Origin: a virus
Length of the DNA stretch: 22,796 nucleotides
IMG/VR virus record: IMGVR_UViG_3300025120_000601
Span: 1-22,796 of that record
Direction: 5' to 3' (one strand)
The notes below the pieces were generated by a model. That model was given only the letters and a program-made list of their open reading frames with translations. It was not told the origin of the DNA and ran no database searches. This document shows, one piece after another, positions 4,945 to 21,525 of this stretch. The first letter of the stretch is position 1; every line of letters begins with the position of its first letter. A program made the translations under genes and the position numbers.

Positions 4945-5162
4945 GTATTACAAAAGAAAGTATTTGGTGCGTATTTTTTTGGGCCTGTACTACAGGATAG
5001 TTGACTTTTCGGCGATACCCCCTTAGTATTACAGTAACAGATGTTTCCCACGTACCAGCAGGTTCCCTATGTCCTACGCCACGCTGCCCTTGTTGCGAAC
5101 CCGCCCCCCTTATTGCGAACGGGTCAATTGTTACATTCTGTGACGATATTTGAGAATCATTC
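4945..5162 (-). promoter_or_regulatory. Leader/control region upstream of late operon
   Basis: No gene is supported here. The region contains a Fur-like palindrome at 5151-5165, which runs 3 nt into the next gene, a direct repeat of CTTRTTGCGAAC at 5089-5100 and 5109-5120, and a perfect palindrome at 4984-4996. A possible leftward promoter (TTCTCA, 17 nt, TAACAA on the minus strand) would have its -35 inside the Fur-like box. The promoter assignment is tentative. Confidence 0.45.
4984..4996. promoter_or_regulatory. Perfect 13-bp palindrome, operator candidate
   Basis: CCTGTACTACAGG is a perfect 6-1-6 inverted repeat 40-52 nt upstream of the terminase start. Such a site could bind a dimeric repressor, or form a short hairpin in the late mRNA leader. 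It resembles half of a LexA operator only superficially. Confidence 0.4.
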
Positions 5163-5638: not shown

Positions 5639-5654
5639 AATTTTTTAGCTTGGA

Positions 5655-5735
5655 TTGTGCGGGTGTGTCCCGCTTGTCTGTATTGTAGTAGTTTACAAGC
5701 GGGTGACAACGTCTAGATTGTTAAAGAAACATTAA
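5655..5735 (-). promoter_or_regulatory. Promoter/leader cassette, copy 1
   Basis: Two conserved blocks (5655-5686 and 5704-5735, 32 nt each) are identical to blocks in copy 2 at 6043-6123, separated in both by exactly 17 unrelated nt. On the minus strand this reads TTGTCA, 16 nt, TACAAT, a good sigma-70 promoter, with the divergent segment being the spacer. Downstream, GCGGGACACACCCGC forms a 5-bp hairpin in the leader before the gene at 5638. Confidence 0.7.
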
Positions 5736-6031: not shown

Positions 6032-6042
6032 TGTTTTTTAAG

Positions 6043-6123
6043 TTGTGCGGGTGTGTCCCGCTTGTCTGTATTGTTGCACAGTACAGGCAGTTGACAACGT
6101 CTAGATTGTTAAAGAAACATTAA
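6043..6123 (-). promoter_or_regulatory. Promoter/leader cassette, copy 2
   Basis: This shares 32-nt blocks at 6043-6074 and 6092-6123 with copy 1. The minus strand reads TTGTCA, 16 nt, AACAAT, followed by the same GCGGG-ACACA-CCCGC hairpin, directing transcription into the 99-residue gene. The 17-nt segment between the blocks differs completely from copy 1, as expected for an unconstrained promoter spacer. Confidence 0.7.
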
Positions 6124-6127
6124 GTCG

Positions 6128-6567: not shown

Positions 6568-7218
6568 TTAGCAATAGCAAGGTCCAACTGGGGTCAGCAC
6601 TACAGGAAATGGGACATCCTGCAACCGTGCCAGCCATGTCTTACGGGTATCGCACCAAACAGGTTCCTTGCTCGCCAGGGCATCCCGAACCTGGCCAGTG
6701 GGCCAAGAACTGTAACCTTGAGAGAATCGATCATTCCAGCTAACAAGGTCAGGATGATCAGCATCGGCATCGATTGACATCGGCGATGCGTGCCATCCGC
6801 AGACCCAATCTAGGAAACCAGAATCCGCAATCGAGTCAACACGAAATACGCTGAAGTTGCCATAGTTGCCGCGGACATCACCGCCTAAGTGTTTTTCAAC
6901 GGTTACAAAAATGTCATTCTGCCAGCACCAATCGGAACAGTCTTCAGGCACATAAACGGTAAAGACGAAGTTTGCCGTAAAATTGTTTTCTGAGTTGTAC
7001 GTATTGTCTCGTAACTCGGCGCGATACTGCTGGCACGTCTGGCGTGCGAACCAGCTCAACAGCGCGGGCTCTTCCTCGCTGACCCAATTGCTGGCGTCAA
7101 TGTAGGCAGGCAACGCTAAGGGCTCGCCCAGGCTATTCAGGATATGTAGATCAGTGTCTAGTTCGGGGCAGTCCCAACATGTGGGGTCTGCTTTAACGGC
7201 TTCGATGGGGTTAGGCAC
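6568..7218 (-). CDS. Hypothetical protein, Trp/Cys-rich
   Basis: This protein is about 216 residues and rich in Trp, Cys and Asp, for example 'CSDWCWQNDIFVTVEKHLGG' and 'SGFLDWVCGWHASPMSIDAD'. It has no obvious membrane helix. The GTG at 7218 (MPNPIEAVKADP) has AAGG 5 nt upstream and is preferred. An upstream GTG at 7254 would add 12 residues without a clear ribosome binding site. It is divergent from the rightward gene at 7365, with a shared 146-bp regulatory gap. I do not recognise a family. Confidence 0.65.
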   Translation of the reverse strand: MPNPIEAVKADPTCWDCPELDTDLHILNSLGEPLALPAYIDASNWVSEEEPALLSWFARQTCQQYRAELRDNTYNSENNFTANFVFTVYVPEDCSDWCWQNDIFVTVEKHLGGDVRGNYGNFSVFRVDSIADSGFLDWVCGWHASPMSIDADADHPDLVSWNDRFSQGYSSWPTGQVRDALASKEPVWCDTRKTWLARLQDVPFPVVLTPVGPCYC

Positions 7219-7364
7219 GGGTGACCTTGGTGTGGTTCCCGTTAATCGTCCCACACAATAGAAGAAACCGCAACCCCCCCAACCCGAAACGCACCAACAT
7301 CCACCAATCGTCTTGTTTTTCTCGTCTTTCCTGTTATTGTATTAGGGCAGTTAATCGCCACATC

Positions 7365-8052: not shown

Positions 8053-8246
8053 GATAATGGTTATCATTTTCATTTTTTACTGAGAATGATTATCATTATC
8101 ACTTTTGTGCTATTAAATGAGAATGATTATCATTATCACTTTTGTGCTATTAAATGAGAATGATTATCATTATCACTTTTGTGCTATTAAATGAGAATGA
8201 TAACCATTATCACTTTTGCTAGGTCTTGATAATGGTTCTCATTATC
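8053..8246. repeat. Tandem array of six Fur-box-like palindromes
   Basis: Six 19-bp sites lie at 8053-8071, 8082-8100, 8119-8137, 8156-8174, 8193-8211 and 8228-8246. Sites 2-4 are identical (GAGAATGATTATCATTATC) and match 17 of 19 positions of the classical Fur box GATAATGATAATCATTATC. Site 5 matches 17, and sites 1 and 6 match 16. Sites 2-5 have an exact 37-bp period with an identical 18-bp linker (ACTTTTGTGCTATTAAAT). The linker contains TGCTATTAA, which could be an extended -10. The region is very A+T-rich and lies between the 3' ends of convergent genes. Confidence 0.85.
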
Positions 8247-8321: not shown

Positions 8322-8389
8322 CCGAAACCACGTTCCAGCCGAAACCACGTTCCAGCCGAAACCACGTTCCAGCCGAAACCACGTTCCAG
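8322..8389. repeat. Four tandem 17-bp repeats (iteron-like)
   Basis: Four exact head-to-tail copies of CCGAAACCACGTTCCAG start at 8322, 8339, 8356 and 8373, with no spacer. Each ends in the octamer CGTTCCAG found throughout the window. A 17-bp period is not a multiple of 3, which argues against coding, and is typical in size for replication-origin iterons. Together with the adjacent A+T-rich array this is a candidate origin or partition/packaging site. Confidence 0.7.
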
Positions 8390-9849: not shown

Positions 9850-10425
9850 CTAGGCAGCTTCCTTGAATGGATTACCACCAGCAATCAGCCTGGTGATGTC
9901 AAAACCAGCCTTTAATGCTGCGTCCCATGCCTTATCCATCACTGCTTGGCTGGTCTTACGGGGTACAGGCCGTAGCGTGTATTCCGTGTTTAGTCCTGAG
10001 CCCTCTTTGACAAGAACAAAGTCCCATTCCATCAGGTTTTCGTAGTCTTCCATTTGGGAAAGGCTGTCAAACTCCTTAATAATTGACTTCTGGGTGATGC
10101 TCAGAACCTGAATAGTTCTTGATTCGTGGTTGTAGCAGGGCACAGCAATTGCGAACTTCACTGCTTCCGGTCCAGTGCCTTCCCGGTTCATCCGGCGTGA
10201 ATAGCCTGGTCCCATTTCCTGCTCAACATCAGCAGGTGATGGATCGTCAAGAAAACGGAATGGTCTCACAGTCATGTCTGAAGCTTCGCCCCAGCACTCA
10301 TAAAATTCCAGTGGCTCTTCGGCGAGTAGCGCAAAACGAACCTGGCTGCCTGCAGCGATCTTGCTGGGATTCAAATAACCGCCTGCGCCGCCTGCAACGG
10401 CCTCTTTGTTCTTCAGGAAACTCAT
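9850..10425 (-). CDS. Single-stranded DNA-binding-like protein
   Basis: This 191-residue protein resembles proteins annotated as ssDNA-binding in T7-like cyanophages, from memory. Features are the N-terminal 'GGYLNPSKIAAGSQVRFALL' beta segment, 'PFRFLDDPSPADVEQEMG', 'VKFAIAVPCYNHESRTIQVL' and 'ITQKSIIKEF', and a C-terminal 'FDITRLIAGGNPFKEAA'. The alternating beta strands fit an OB-type fold. It would coat single strands at the fork and recruit polymerase or nuclease. It is divergent from the primase-helicase, across a shared promoter region, and has its own terminator. The fold assignment is moderately secure; the exact role is inferred. Confidence 0.65.
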   Translation of the reverse strand: MSFLKNKEAVAGGAGGYLNPSKIAAGSQVRFALLAEEPLEFYECWGEASDMTVRPFRFLDDPSPADVEQEMGPGYSRRMNREGTGPEAVKFAIAVPCYNHESRTIQVLSITQKSIIKEFDSLSQMEDYENLMEWDFVLVKEGSGLNTEYTLRPVPRKTSQAVMDKAWDAALKAGFDITRLIAGGNPFKEAA

Positions 10426-10468: not shown

Positions 10469-10508
10469 ATAGTAGCACACTGACGAGGGTGGACAGGTCC
10501 GCTACAAT
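10469..10508. promoter_or_regulatory. Divergent promoters for SSB-like and primase genes
   Basis: Rightward: CTGACG (10480-10485), 17-nt spacer, TACAAT (10503-10508) precedes the primase leader. Leftward: TGCTACTAT on the minus strand (10477-10469) is an extended -10 without a strong -35, about 45 nt upstream of the SSB-like start. The two overlap face to face, so their activity may be mutually exclusive. Confidence 0.55.
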
Positions 10509-14735: not shown

Positions 14736-14979
14736 TTCTGTTAATTTTCCAGCGCACTACCAAAGCACTAACGGTGTGGAGTGTATTGAAGCGATCAAGG
14801 CCGCAATGACAACCGAAGAGTTTTTTGGTTATCTGCGCGGCAATTGCATCAAATACATCTGGAGGTATCGCCAAAAAAATAGCTCTGATCCTAGTGAAGA
14901 CCTTCGCAAAGCCAGGTGGTACTTATGCCGCTTGATTTTGGAATTTGAAACCAGTCCTTATGACGACTCTCTTGCATGA
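14728..14979 (+). CDS. DUF3310-like small phage protein
   Basis: This 83-residue protein matches the pattern of DUF3310 proteins: 'HYQSTNGVECIEAIKAAMTT', then 'EEFFGYLRGNCIKYIWRYRQ', then 'SEDLRKARWYLCRLI'. DUF3310 proteins are widespread in phages, often near nucleotide or replication genes; their function is unresolved. The ATG at 14728 overlaps the preceding stop and gives the domain's usual start, so upstream in-frame extensions are not used. Its own stop overlaps the next ATG (ATGA). Confidence 0.85.
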   Translation: MTDSVNFPAHYQSTNGVECIEAIKAAMTTEEFFGYLRGNCIKYIWRYRQKNSSDPSEDLRKARWYLCRLILEFETSPYDDSLA

Positions 14980-15212
14980 ACTGCCCCCACTGCAACCGCA
15001 AACCACAGCGCGGCGATCAGTGGGTCACTCAAACCAAGCCTCGGTTTGAAACAAGCATTGTAAGATGCCGCAAGTGCCCAGGCTGTGGCCACAAGTGGTT
15101 CACAGCTGAGGTTCCAATTGTTTGCGACATGCAGTCCGCTGATCGCATCACAGACTTAGAAACCACCGTAAAAAGTCTTCTCAAAGCTTCTTACGAAACT
15201 TTCCCTCTTTAA
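14976..15212 (+). CDS. NrdR-type zinc-ribbon protein, no ATP-cone
   Basis: This 78-residue protein has four cysteines as C3-x2-C6 and C31-x2-C, in 'MNCPHCNRKPQRGDQWVTQT' and 'IVRCRKCPGCGHKWFTAEVP'. This arrangement, with basic residues before the second cysteine pair and 'FTAE' after it, closely follows the N-terminal zinc ribbon of NrdR, the repressor of ribonucleotide reductase genes. NrdR is about 150 residues with a nucleotide-binding ATP-cone, which is absent here; a short coiled-coil-like segment (DRITDLETTVKSLLKASY) replaces it. It may bind DNA as a stand-alone zinc ribbon. Translationally coupled to the DUF3310-like gene. Confidence 0.7.
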   Translation: MNCPHCNRKPQRGDQWVTQTKPRFETSIVRCRKCPGCGHKWFTAEVPIVCDMQSADRITDLETTVKSLLKASYETFPL

Positions 15213-17901: not shown

Positions 17902-17938
17902 CACAATGCTAGACTAAAATCTACTGGGCTACTACTTG

Positions 17939-18205
17939 ATGGCAATTCGGCACGGAAATAAAACGTATATGCAGATTCTTCTTGATCCGCACAGGGCAAA
18001 ATTGCTGCTTGACCTAGCTGAACAGACTAGCACACGTCCCACCGCTTGGATTCGCAACGCAGTTTACAGGGCATTGGAACGGGAATACCCTGCCGCAATT
18101 TACAACGAGGCAGTTGCTAAGGATGAAGCTGCTTGGCGGGCTTCTGTTCGTAAACGTGTGGAAGGCCGTATTAAGTCACGTAAAGCTCCTGAAGATTCCG
18201 AGTAA
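17939..18205 (+). CDS. Ribbon-helix-helix-like DNA-binding protein
   Basis: This 88-residue protein has a short strand (KTYMQILLDP), then two helices (HRAKLLLDLAEQTSTRPTAW and IRNAVYRALEREY), the layout of CopG/Arc-type ribbon-helix-helix repressors. The C-terminal half is basic. ATG 17939 is preferred over the TTG 3 nt earlier. CTACTACTTG lies directly upstream and is repeated near 18238. It may be a phage transcription regulator preceding the sigma-factor unit. Confidence 0.6.
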   Translation: MAIRHGNKTYMQILLDPHRAKLLLDLAEQTSTRPTAWIRNAVYRALEREYPAAIYNEAVAKDEAAWRASVRKRVEGRIKSRKAPEDSE

Positions 18206-18298
18206 AAGGCTTTGTACTGTGCTACTCTTCCTGGGTCTACTACTTGCCGACTATTGACAAAAAGTAATCACAAGATCAGCGACAAAAAACTCAAAGAC

Positions 18299-18358
18299 AT
18301 GGCTAAACAAATAGCCAAAGCCATTAAAGCAATGCGCCCTACACAGGAGAACTCATGA
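18299..18358 (+). CDS. Possible 19-residue leader peptide
   Basis: MAKQIAKAIKAMRPTQENS ends with an ATGA overlap with the next gene. An in-frame TTG at 18254 would extend it to 34 mostly Lys-rich residues. The overlap suggests translational coupling, but at this length the evidence is weak. Confidence 0.3.
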   Translation: MAKQIAKAIKAMRPTQENS

Positions 18359-18561
18359 CACGTTACGCACTAGCCTGCTCTACTCCTAATGGAATGCGGT
18401 ATTTAGCAGCTGCTTATGATAACTCAAAAAGTGGCGTCGTTTACACACTTATGCGTACTGATGCTTGCTCCTATGTCACTATTGAAAAAGCCAGCCAAGT
18501 GGCACGTAGCCTTAAAGACAGCATGGACTGCATACCAAGTATTGTGGAGGTTTCTTACTGA
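18355..18561 (+). CDS. Small hypothetical protein before sigma factor
   Basis: This 68-residue protein begins MTRYALACSTPNGMRYLAAA. It looks like an alpha/beta domain: two strands, then 'VTIEKASQVARSLKDSM' helix, then 'IPSIVEVSY'. AGGAG lies 6 nt upstream of the ATG. Its stop overlaps the sigma factor start (TGATG). The tight coupling raises the possibility that it modulates the sigma factor, but nothing in the sequence shows this. Confidence 0.65.
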   Translation: MTRYALACSTPNGMRYLAAAYDNSKSGVVYTLMRTDACSYVTIEKASQVARSLKDSMDCIPSIVEVSY

Positions 18562-19421
18562 TGGAAGGTTTTAGTCAATACCTGAAAGACATTGTCCGGT
18601 ATCCGCTCTTAAATAAAGAGCAAGAAATACTGCTGGCACGGCAGGTACAAGTTTGGGTTACATCTGAACACCCTTCCGTAAGAGAAATTAAGATGGGCAA
18701 GCGGGCCTATCAAAAGCTCATCAACTGCAACCTAAGGCTTGTCGTATCTATTGCAAAACGTTACACATTACGTTCTAGGCGCACAGAAATGTTTGACATT
18801 GTGCAAGAAGGAAACATTGGACTTGCTCATGGCATTAAAAAATTTGACCCGGAACGTGGGTATGCCTTATCTACTTACGTTTATTGGTGGATCAGGCAGT
18901 CCATCAGCCGTTATTTGAGTTACCACGACCGGATGATTCGCATTCCGTCCCATGCGGGGGAAATACTGCTCAAATTGCGGCAGTGGGCACCTCAATTCGA
19001 GCTAGCGCATGGCAGACGCCCCACGCTAGAAGAAAGCGCAGAGTATTGTGCTACAACCCCTAAACGGTTGCGAGAGTACCTGGAACGTAGTGAGGATTGC
19101 CTTAGCTTGGATAAAACTAGAACCGGGATGGATTCTCAAGAGCATGCTCTGGTTGAGATTATTACTAATGGTGAGCATCCCATGGAAAAGCTTGACAACC
19201 TTTTCTGTAGTGATACAGTAAACAGGCTGCTGATGTCTTTGGATTCTGTGGATCGCACCATCGTTGAACGTGTTTTTGCTTTTGATGGTGGTGAAGCTCA
19301 AACCTACATAAAAATCTCAAAAGATTTAAACATGTCCAGAGAACGTGTAAGGCAAAGATACCATAGAGCCTTAAAAAAACTTCATGTGCTGGCAAAGCTT
19401 GGTACTTGCGGGCCTTTATAG
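18561..19421 (+). CDS. Phage-encoded sigma-70 family factor
   Basis: This 286-residue RpoD/SigB-like factor would direct host RNA polymerase to phage promoters. Region 1.2 is at about 5-30 (QYLKDIVRYPLLNKEQEILL), in a form typical of cyanobacterial group 2 sigmas. Region 2.1-2.2 is at 55-98 (NCNLRLVVSIAKRY, 'DIVQEGNIGLAHGIKKFDPE'). Region 2.3-2.4, for melting and -10 recognition, is at 100-120 (GYALSTYVYWWIRQSISRYL). Region 3 spans about 127-190. Region 4.2 is at 250-275 (KISKDLNMSRERVRQRYHRA) for -35 contact. Region 1.1 is absent, as in group 2 and 3 factors. No phage RNA polymerase was seen, so this factor is likely a main transcription switch. Coupled to neighbours on both sides. Confidence 0.92.
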   Translation: MEGFSQYLKDIVRYPLLNKEQEILLARQVQVWVTSEHPSVREIKMGKRAYQKLINCNLRLVVSIAKRYTLRSRRTEMFDIVQEGNIGLAHGIKKFDPERGYALSTYVYWWIRQSISRYLSYHDRMIRIPSHAGEILLKLRQWAPQFELAHGRRPTLEESAEYCATTPKRLREYLERSEDCLSLDKTRTGMDSQEHALVEIITNGEHPMEKLDNLFCSDTVNRLLMSLDSVDRTIVERVFAFDGGEAQTYIKISKDLNMSRERVRQRYHRALKKLHVLAKLGTCGPL

Positions 19422-19645
19422 TGAATTGCTCTAACTGCGGTGCCTCAGGTAGAGGGGTCGTAAAAACCATCAGCACTCGTAACTCGCACGAAGTGGCGAA
19501 GACACGGGTTTGGAAATGTACGGTGTGCTCCACGCTTTCATATTCAGTAGAAATTCCAGTGGATGAAAACCACATCTACTGTCAAATTCACTACCACGCT
19601 AAAAAAAGTGTGGTGAAACGTTTGATCTCTGCGCTTTATTCATGA
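19421..19645 (+). CDS. Second small zinc-ribbon protein
   Basis: This 74-residue protein starts with GTG that shares a base with the sigma factor stop, and reads MNCSNCGASGRGVVKTISTR. Cys pairs C3-x2-C6 and 'VWKCTVCSTLSYSVEIP' give a four-Cys zinc ribbon with the spacing of the NrdR N-terminal domain. The C-terminus is basic. It has no ATP-cone. It is flanked by sigma factor and ThyX, so roles in transcription or nucleotide control are both possible. Its stop overlaps the ThyX start (ATGA). Confidence 0.65.
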   Translation: MNCSNCGASGRGVVKTISTRNSHEVAKTRVWKCTVCSTLSYSVEIPVDENHIYCQIHYHAKKSVVKRLISALYS

Positions 19646-20280
19646 GCAATGTTGAATTAGTTTGGGTAACTCCAAACGCTGAAAAGCTGATCGTGCGTAT
19701 GGCACGTGTTAGTAATCCGTCCAATGAAGACAACTGGGAAACTGGACCAGGGCTTCTTAGATACCTTGTTAAACACAAGCATTGGTCACCCTTTGAGATG
19801 GTCAATATGTGCGTTCAAATCGATACCGAACGTGACATTGCTGCACAGATTTTGCGGCATCGGTCCTTTTCGTTCCAAGAATATTCCACCCGCTACAGCA
19901 AGACCGCACCAGCTGAAGTACCGTATTTCCGGCGGCAAGACACTACAAATCGACAGAACAGCGTTAATGACCTGCATCCAAAGCATCAGGAAGAATACCA
20001 AGCAGGTGCTGGTCGCGTTATTGCTGATGCCTTTCTGTTTTATGACTCCCTACTGGAACGGGGCGTTGCCAAGGAGACGGCTAGACGCATCTTGCCGCTC
20101 TGTACTCCTACCACCCTTTACATGCAAGGGACACTAAGGTCTTGGGTGCATTACATCAAGTTGCGGGCTCATGACGATACACAACTGGAACACCGGCAAA
20201 TTGCGTTCCAATGTGCAGCTGTGTTTAAGGAGTGCTTTCCAACGGTGTACCAGGCTGTTTTTCCTACACTGAACCTATGA
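19642..20280 (+). CDS. thyX: Flavin-dependent thymidylate synthase
   Basis: This 212-residue protein makes dTMP from dUMP using methylene-tetrahydrofolate, FAD and NADPH. The ThyX signature RHRxxSxxExSxRY is present at residues 72-85 (RHRSFSFQEYSTRY). Other family features are 'WSPFEMVNMCVQIDTERDIA' near 48-67 and the C-terminal 'WVHYIKLRAHDDTQLEHRQI', which carries the conserved Arg and Asp/Glu around the active site. Length is typical. Supplying dTMP favours rapid phage DNA synthesis; ThyX is common in cyanobacteria and their phages. ATGA overlaps on both sides place it in the sigma-zinc ribbon-ThyX unit. Confidence 0.96.
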   Translation: MSNVELVWVTPNAEKLIVRMARVSNPSNEDNWETGPGLLRYLVKHKHWSPFEMVNMCVQIDTERDIAAQILRHRSFSFQEYSTRYSKTAPAEVPYFRRQDTTNRQNSVNDLHPKHQEEYQAGAGRVIADAFLFYDSLLERGVAKETARRILPLCTPTTLYMQGTLRSWVHYIKLRAHDDTQLEHRQIAFQCAAVFKECFPTVYQAVFPTLNL

Positions 20281-20521: not shown

Positions 20522-20836
20522 TTACTGCTCCGTCCATTCAGAAATGCGGGCTTCGCGGGCTTCGTTCCAGTAGTCACGTTCTCTGTACCATTCCTGCCAG
20601 TCATGGCCTGATTTGTGGCTATTGCAGGAAAAGCAACAGCCCACTAAATTGCGTTGTTCTGTTATTCCGCCTTTCCACTTTGGGACTACATGATCCAACG
20701 TTGCGTTCTTGCCTAGCGGTTCAGCGCAGTAGGCGCAGCAGTAGTTCCATTGCTGCAAAATATGGTCCCGAAAGCGCACCTTGGCTTTTTTACGGGATAC
20801 CAGCTCGGACCCGTCAATCTGGTGGTCCACTACCAC
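20522..20836 (-). CDS. HNH endonuclease
   Basis: This 104-residue protein has a compact HNH motif: 'CCAYCAEPLG' (first Cys pair), 'ATLDHVVPKWKGG' (the DH of the active site), 'RNLVGCCFSCNSHKSG' (Asn and second Cys pair, with Lys-Ser-Gly), consistent with a zinc-stabilised beta-beta-alpha metal fold. Phage HNH proteins act as homing endonucleases or as packaging cofactors. This one sits at the junction of replication and lysis genes, away from terminase, so a free-standing homing-type enzyme is somewhat more likely. Confidence 0.88.
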   Translation of the reverse strand: MVVDHQIDGSELVSRKKAKVRFRDHILQQWNYCCAYCAEPLGKNATLDHVVPKWKGGITEQRNLVGCCFSCNSHKSGHDWQEWYRERDYWNEAREARISEWTEQ

Positions 20837-20898
20837 TGCTCAATAGACCGCAACAACCTATTTGACTTGCAGCTATCTATATGGTAACGCCGAGAAAA

Positions 20899-21525
20899 TT
20901 ACGGTGTTGACCAGATTCGGCCTTCTTCTATACGACGACGGCGTAGTCCTTCCTCAAAATGCGATCCAGGGTTTCTGTAAAGTAATAAAGCATCGGGTAC
21001 TTTGCTCCATTCGTGGTTCTTTAATATCCTGCTAATTGTGCTAAACCCTGGCAGGCCGTAGAAGTACGCTCCAAGGTTAAATGCAAAACTTATGACCGCT
21101 GATTTTTGGTTGGAACTCATGTCTTTCCAAAACGGTATATCGTTTTCAAGAATTTCTGCGGTTCGCTCTATTTCTAAGCTCAACATTTCTTCTGCCCTTT
21201 GCTGGCTAATTCTTTCGCCAAGCCTTACGCTTTGGCCTTCGGGATACCGGGTATTTCCGTAGCCAATCGTTGGTACGCCAGCAGGACATAAGTATGCAGT
21301 TAAATGACAGCCTTCAAATTCTTTGATAAGCTCCACTGCCGCGCCGTAATTTTTGTCGTTTACAGCTGAAATCCATGTCCCGTACCAGGGCTGGTCACGG
21401 TTAAGGATGTCTGGCTGCATACTTAAAATTGCGGCTTCAAGCTCTACTAGCGCAGCACTTTGATGCGGCAGTTTCCGGTAGTAACGGAATAGGTCATTTA
21501 GGTGAACCGGAGTGTTTGGACTCAT
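20899..21525 (-). CDS. GH24 lysozyme (endolysin) with N-terminal extension
   Basis: This 208-residue protein is a T4-type muramidase that cuts peptidoglycan to lyse the host. The catalytic region is 'LIKEFEGCHLTAYLCPAGVP' and 'TIGYGNTRYPEGQ', giving E71, C80 and T86 at exactly the spacing of E11, D20 and T26 of T4 lysozyme; the Asp is Cys here. Residues 105-205 carry the helical lobe ('KSAVISFAFNLGAYFYGLPG', 'GLRRRRIEEGRIW'). Residues 1-58 form an additional helical N-terminal domain of unknown role, perhaps substrate binding. There is no signal peptide, so a holin is needed; the small membrane proteins just upstream are candidates. Confidence 0.9.
   Translation of the reverse strand: MSPNTPVHLNDLFRYYRKLPHQSAALVELEAAILSMQPDILNRDQPWYGTWISAVNDKNYGAAVELIKEFEGCHLTAYLCPAGVPTIGYGNTRYPEGQSVRLGERISQQRAEEMLSLEIERTAEILENDIPFWKDMSSNQKSAVISFAFNLGAYFYGLPGFSTISRILKNHEWSKVPDALLLYRNPGSHFEEGLRRRRIEEGRIWSTP

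Follow-up and report, generated by a model that had tools for sequence, protein, structure and literature searches.

A group 2-like sigma factor in a conserved gene cassette with a clade-specific candidate promoter motif in a siphovirus-like cyanophage

The phage DNA analyzed here encodes a sigma-70 factor of cyanobacterial group 2 type within a conserved cassette of overlapping genes, which is preceded by a promoter-like motif found throughout its clade. The sigma protein itself is of a known kind, and what is new is the conserved cassette together with the clade promoter motif; our literature search, made mainly among journals open without subscription, turned up no previous account of this gene unit as a fixed arrangement or of the pattern of start signals around it. 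The explanation that we favor, with a confidence slightly better than even, is that a captured group 2 sigma factor would direct the host core polymerase to phage promoters in an early-to-late switch.

Origin and layout of the window

The window, i.e., the whole stretch of DNA analyzed, is the 22,796-nt viral record IMGVR_UViG_3300025120_000601 (positions 1 to 22,796). Its portal protein is closest to those of cyanophages S-2L (37.5% identity) and S-H1 (32% identity), which indicates that the window belongs to a siphovirus-like cyanophage; judging from the sequence, its hosts are probably marine picocyanobacteria. Relatives of the sigma factor are encoded on 103 IMG/VR contigs, and the sigma ORF is therefore not a chance one; the best 80 of the 103 contigs were kept, with sigma identities of 54-92%. 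A cultured representative of the window's clade did not turn up. The features in and around the cassette are as follows.

17936..18205, plus strand: 89-aa gene before the cassette, possibly encoding a ribbon-helix-helix protein (weak DUF6290 match, 0.0038)
18218..18228, plus strand: candidate cassette promoter, extended -10 TGTGCTACTCT (motif conserved in relatives)
18355..18561, plus strand: up68, 68-aa candidate partner gene with the family motif DACSYVTxEKA (linkage, AlphaFold2)
18561..19421, plus strand: phage sigma-70 factor, 286 aa, group 2-like, regions 1.2-4.2 (ORF, Pfam, PHROG, PDB, tree)
19421..19645, plus strand: 74-aa zinc-ribbon gene with two CxxC pairs (CxxC count, Pfam on orthologues)
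19642..20280, plus strand: thyX, FAD-dependent thymidylate synthase (Pfam Thy1, 2.9e-45; TIGR02170 over cut-off)
20522..21525, minus strand: HNH gene and lysozyme gene, which face the sigma cassette as the distal end of a convergent late module

Domains and contact residues of the sigma factor

Our Pfam analysis detected regions 1.2 (4.8e-8), 2 (4.8e-19), 3 (1.2e-5, barely over the cut-off) and 4 (8.4e-11) in this order, each passing its gathering cut-off, which confirmed the full sigma-70 factor with regions 1.2 to 4.2 that the initial annotation had placed at 18561-19421. Region 1.1 is absent, and the protein begins at region 1.2. The best PHROG was phrog_351, RNA polymerase sigma factor (2.1e-60), and the matching PDB chains were SigA/HrdB/RpoD/RpoS proteins (top match, 3e-39). 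Identity as a T4-type late sigma factor (gp55) was ruled out because the window sigma has full regions 1.2-4 and is not reduced. The sigma scored 241.4 bits against the cyanobacterial RpoD/SigA family TIGR02997, under the curated cut-off of 384.5; by its sequence, it is a derived relative of this family and not a standard member.

Alignment with host sigmas revealed that the core-binding region 2.1/2.2 (NLRLVV and DIVQEGN), the -10 contact position WWIRQ, the extended -10 contacts H..E in region 3.0 and the -35 contacts RERxRQ in region 4.2 are all kept, the contact positions being assigned by analogy with E. coli sigma-70. We infer that the protein binds core RNA polymerase and supports promoter-specific initiation. 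The window-clade sigmas also carry changes of their own: YALSTY replaces the host YKFSTY in region 2.3, two additional residues lie between 2.1 and 2.2, SHA(V/G)E (SHAVE/SHAGE) replaces VHLYE in region 3.0 of most members, and RQRxHR or a similar sequence replaces RQIEAK in region 4.2 of many members.

Phylogeny

The tree included the sigma repertoires of five cyanobacterial genomes and the cyanosiphovirus sigmas of P-SS2, S-CBS1/2/3, S-LBS1, KBS-S-2A and the window's clade. The sigmas of the window's clade, S-CBS1, S-CBS3 and KBS-S-2A were monophyletic with a support of 100/99, or 100/98 after two of the longest rows were dropped, and in the tree without these two rows the group 2 and phage sigmas were split from group 1 by a branch with a support of 96/87. 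When P-SS2, S-LBS1 and S-CBS2 were added, all 24 phage rows formed one clade (98/99), within which the placement of these three is unsure owing to their long branches. The phage clade was nested among picocyanobacterial group 2 sigmas with an enclosing branch of 100/99, and its exact sister received moderate support only (96/79).

These results support a cyanobacterial group 2 ancestry of the sigma factor, with the caveat of long branches, and the cyanosiphovirus sigmas apparently constitute one old, diverged phage lineage of single origin. The comparison with cyanobacterial sigmas that the initial annotation had proposed thus placed the phage clade inside group 2. Its suggestion of capture from the host holds with respect to ancestry; the capture is not recent, since the long phage branch indicates an old event. 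Likewise, the resemblance to cyanobacterial group 2 sigmas that it had noted is borne out by the tree, although the TIGR02997 score marks its limit.

The sigma cassette and the up68 gene

The genes of the cassette are tightly packed. A18561 is common to the up68 stop codon (TGA, 18559-18561) and the sigma ATG, and G19421 is common to the sigma stop codon (TAG, 19419-19421) and the zinc-ribbon GTG, so that the sigma gene, as had been claimed, overlaps each neighbor by one base; the zinc-ribbon gene and thyX overlap by 4 bases in the window. The coupling to these neighbors proposed at the outset extends to the relatives. A gene of 64-71 aa lies immediately upstream of sigma in 79/79 loci with coverage (the window included), with a one-base overlap in 51 of the 79 and a distance of a few bases in the others, and a reverse search found sigma downstream of up68 in 78/78 loci with enough flank. 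By a CxxC-based check, 68/71 loci have, at the sigma stop codon, an overlapping or directly adjoining gene with two CxxC pairs, and ThyX is located downstream of sigma at less than 2 kb in 46/52 loci. The order of the 89-aa gene upstream of up68 is also conserved.

The strict linkage of up68 in both directions and its overlap with sigma in most loci raise the question of whether it encodes an anti-sigma or co-sigma protein controlling the phage sigma, a reading that the initial annotation had put forward and that is compatible with the explanation we favor. The gene had no match among 50,697 phage records and therefore seems confined to the window's clade, a point that we count in favor of this reading. 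However, no credible Pfam match was obtained across 23 members, and the AlphaFold2 model (pLDDT 88; beta-beta-beta-alpha-beta) resembled many small uncharacterized phage proteins in a BFVD fold search (best E, 0.003) and no PDB entry significantly. Furthermore, up68 is absent beside the related sigmas of KBS-S-2A, S-CBS1 and S-CBS3. A controlling role of up68 is thus possible but doubtful. Neither a known family nor a known fold of anti-sigma factors could be assigned to it, for lack of a credible Pfam match or a significant PDB fold match. No significant up68 paralogue was detected in the compared phages.

In the window itself, approximately 200 bases (~18250-18450), comprising the up68 leader and the N-terminal half of the gene, are only ~20-65% identical to close relatives, whereas the flanks are mostly 80-97% identical, which suggests a local replacement or insertion in the window phage.

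In Pfam, diverse orthologues of the zinc-ribbon protein hit PF22811, the zinc ribbon at the N terminus of NrdR; the copy in the window has diverged too far to do so. A full NrdR repressor was rejected, as the proteins have no ATP-cone and are mostly 71-99 aa long. A second gene for an NrdR-type zinc ribbon is present in the early module at 14976-15212 (PF22811, 6.7e-5, under the cut-off).

Promoter motifs

The motif TGnTAnTnT occurs within 75 nt before the up68 start in 70/79 loci, compared with 1.2% of random windows; it lies 27-36 nt from the start in the examples listed, and a TTGAC-like sequence is often found 16-17 nt ahead of it. The cassette promoter is displaced in the window (18218) because the ~200 bases described above differ from those of all the close relatives examined. 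The same extended -10 motif was also mapped elsewhere in the window.

10469..10479, minus strand: TGTGCTACTAT, extended -10 motif preceding the leftward gene 9850-10425 (kept in orthologous intergenic regions)

The form TGTGnTAnnnT, which was chosen after inspecting the sequences, was counted 26 times in 269 kb of sequence from the clade, and 13 of the 26 sites, several of them orthologous to one another, were intergenic and upstream of a gene as called by a simple ORF rule. For 200 permuted motifs the same placement was found 1.5 times on average and 6 times at most. The motif occurred 4 times in five cyanophages (KBS-S-2A, S-CBS1, S-CBS3, S-2L and S-H1) and 3 times in 264 kb of picocyanobacterial DNA, an AT-rich sample of mostly low-GC Prochlorococcus, and in neither set was it intergenic and upstream of a gene. 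A scan of the window with the sigma-70 consensus gave 25 promoter-like sites against 17.5 expected and is uninformative alone.

Other noncoding elements

The start of the packaging and structural module is marked by a conserved noncoding element.

4985..5005, minus strand: GTCAACTATCCTGTAGTACAG, upstream of terL (also in L290, L291 and L292)

The element was present in these four genomes only among those searched, and it may be a late promoter or a packaging site. The same two functions may be considered for a conserved noncoding G-run element, GGGGGnAGGG..TCAA, which follows an ACTGT-like sequence upstream of terL/terS in the window (~4985-5050) and in L293, L294, L296 and L075. A 770-bp stretch without clear genes contains two arrays of tandem repeats, one at 8081-8218 (37-bp unit x3.7, TGAGAATGATTATCATTATCACTTTTGTGCTATTAAA) and one at 8322-8389 (17-bp unit x4, CCGAAACCACGTTCCAG), which are possibly an origin or a regulatory site. 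Two small genes are each preceded by a promoter-like leader on the minus strand (5639-5731 and 6032-6127; TTAATGTTTCTTTAACAATCTAGACGTTGTCA...ACAATACAGACAAGCGGGACACACCCGC), and the two leaders are nearly identical.

Possible roles of the phage sigma factor

In the explanation that we favor, the phage sigma would take the place of the host sigma on the host's core RNA polymerase in infected cells, and the resulting holoenzyme would be directed to phage promoters with a -35 element and an extended -10 element (TGTGnTAnnnT). It would thereby help to switch transcription from the early replication module, which runs rightward, to later genes, among them the leftward module for packaging, structure and lysis. 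Expression of the sigma itself would start at a promoter of its own within the early operon, and up68, a small alpha/beta protein, and the NrdR-type zinc ribbon would probably modulate how active it is or which promoters it selects. The core binding, promoter target, timing and partner roles in this scheme are extrapolated from the domains, the conserved contacts, the tree, the position between the early and late modules, the motif of the cassette promoter and the clade motif, all of which we count in its favor. With respect to position, the sigma gene is found at, or close to, the far end of the early module and faces the lysozyme gene of the late module not only in the window but also in S-CBS1, S-CBS3 and S-LBS1, where a lysozyme gene is likewise near sigma; this arrangement, a positional argument, is consistent with a function in the transition from early to late.

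Several observations stand against this explanation. The motif precedes the sigma cassette, whose first transcription must depend on the host holoenzyme; KBS-S-2A, S-CBS1 and S-CBS3 have related sigmas without the motif; the host sigma could read the motif, given its likeness to a common extended -10 element; and the region upstream of terL in the window has no exact match to TGTGnTAnnnT. An autoregulated early-to-late switch, in which the sigma would need up68 and the zinc ribbon as two dedicated partners and would read TGTGnTAnnnT as a phage-specific class of extended -10 promoters that includes its own, seems rather unlikely to us.

Alternatively, the protein might be an auxiliary sigma acting mainly on the host by reprogramming stress, carbon or nucleotide genes and not phage promoters. 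Its DNA-contact residues closely resemble those of host sigmas, and precedents exist: a review (PMC10452541, citing Sawa 2019) reports enhanced growth and a 1.9-fold rise in acetyl-CoA in S. elongatus expressing RpsD4 of S-CBS3, and Bacillus phage sigmas alter host sporulation, one of them being dispensable for the phage (PMC9429907). The location at the early/late junction, the strict retention in the clade and the clade-wide promoter-like motif favor phage transcription instead, and we regard a mainly host-directed role as unlikely. It is equally improbable that the protein is a general stand-in for the host sigma, maintaining transcription from canonical promoters without any switch, the host holoenzyme reading the motif equally well. 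The conserved promoter recognition residues would suit such a function; the authors describing P-SS2 thought that its group 2 sigma recognizes canonical sigma-70 promoters (PMC2784084), and Ma-LMM01 has been proposed to do without a sigma of its own and to use SigA-like promoters in all phases (PMC5780444). However, a stand-in would not be expected from the long branch, the clade-specific changes in regions 2.3, 3.0 and 4.2 and the clade-specific motif.

The timing of transcription in siphoviruses of marine cyanobacteria has been little studied. Since the sigma cassette is strictly conserved and is accompanied by a candidate promoter motif, the question of timing becomes testable, and the cassette offers one protein, two putative partners and a defined set of candidate promoters that lend themselves to transcription in vitro with cyanobacterial polymerase.

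Comparison with known phage sigma factors

The initial annotation had considered a full sigma-70 factor to be rare in phages, which is at odds with the literature: among 4,350 phage genomes, 13.4% have a sigma of some kind (PMC9429907), and a putative sigma is present in 65/153 cyanophages (PMC10452541). Group 2-type sigmas in cyanophages have been reported since 2009; one was annotated in P-SS2 (PMC2784084), and a diverged RpoD-like sigma was described in S-LBS1 (PMC6157547). S-CBS1 gp27 and S-CBS3 gp29, annotated as rpsD4, 'group 2 RNA polymerase sigma factor', belong to the same clade as the window sigma (43% and 36% identical to it, respectively) and occupy a similar site, the early/late junction near the end with lysozyme; unlike the window clade, these phages lack up68, have different neighboring genes and show no TGTGnTAnnnT upstream of genes. 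The RpoD-like CPKG_00011 of KBS-S-2A is also in the window sigma's clade (37% identity) and lies at the end of the early module, but an HNH gene takes the place of up68 immediately before sigma, and the clade promoter motif is absent. The siphovirus sigmas P-SS2 ORF113, S-CBS2 gp061 and S-LBS1 A33 fall within the same phage clade (98/99) and differ by their very long branches and other gene context. The S-2L record (L297) contains, at 6951-7271, only the opening portion of a related sigma, which ends in an undetermined stretch (XXX); a search for the remainder of this sigma in the record found none.

Picocyanobacterial group 2 sigmas (TIGR02997 family) form the sister lineages and have regions 1.2-4 in common with the window-clade sigmas, which differ by their own substitutions in regions 2.3, 3.0 and 4.2. 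Sigma factors of the T4 gp55 and SPO1 gp28 types are reduced and highly diverged and redirect the host core polymerase. The window sigma, in contrast, keeps all regions from 1.2 to 4.2, and it would redirect the core polymerase likewise.
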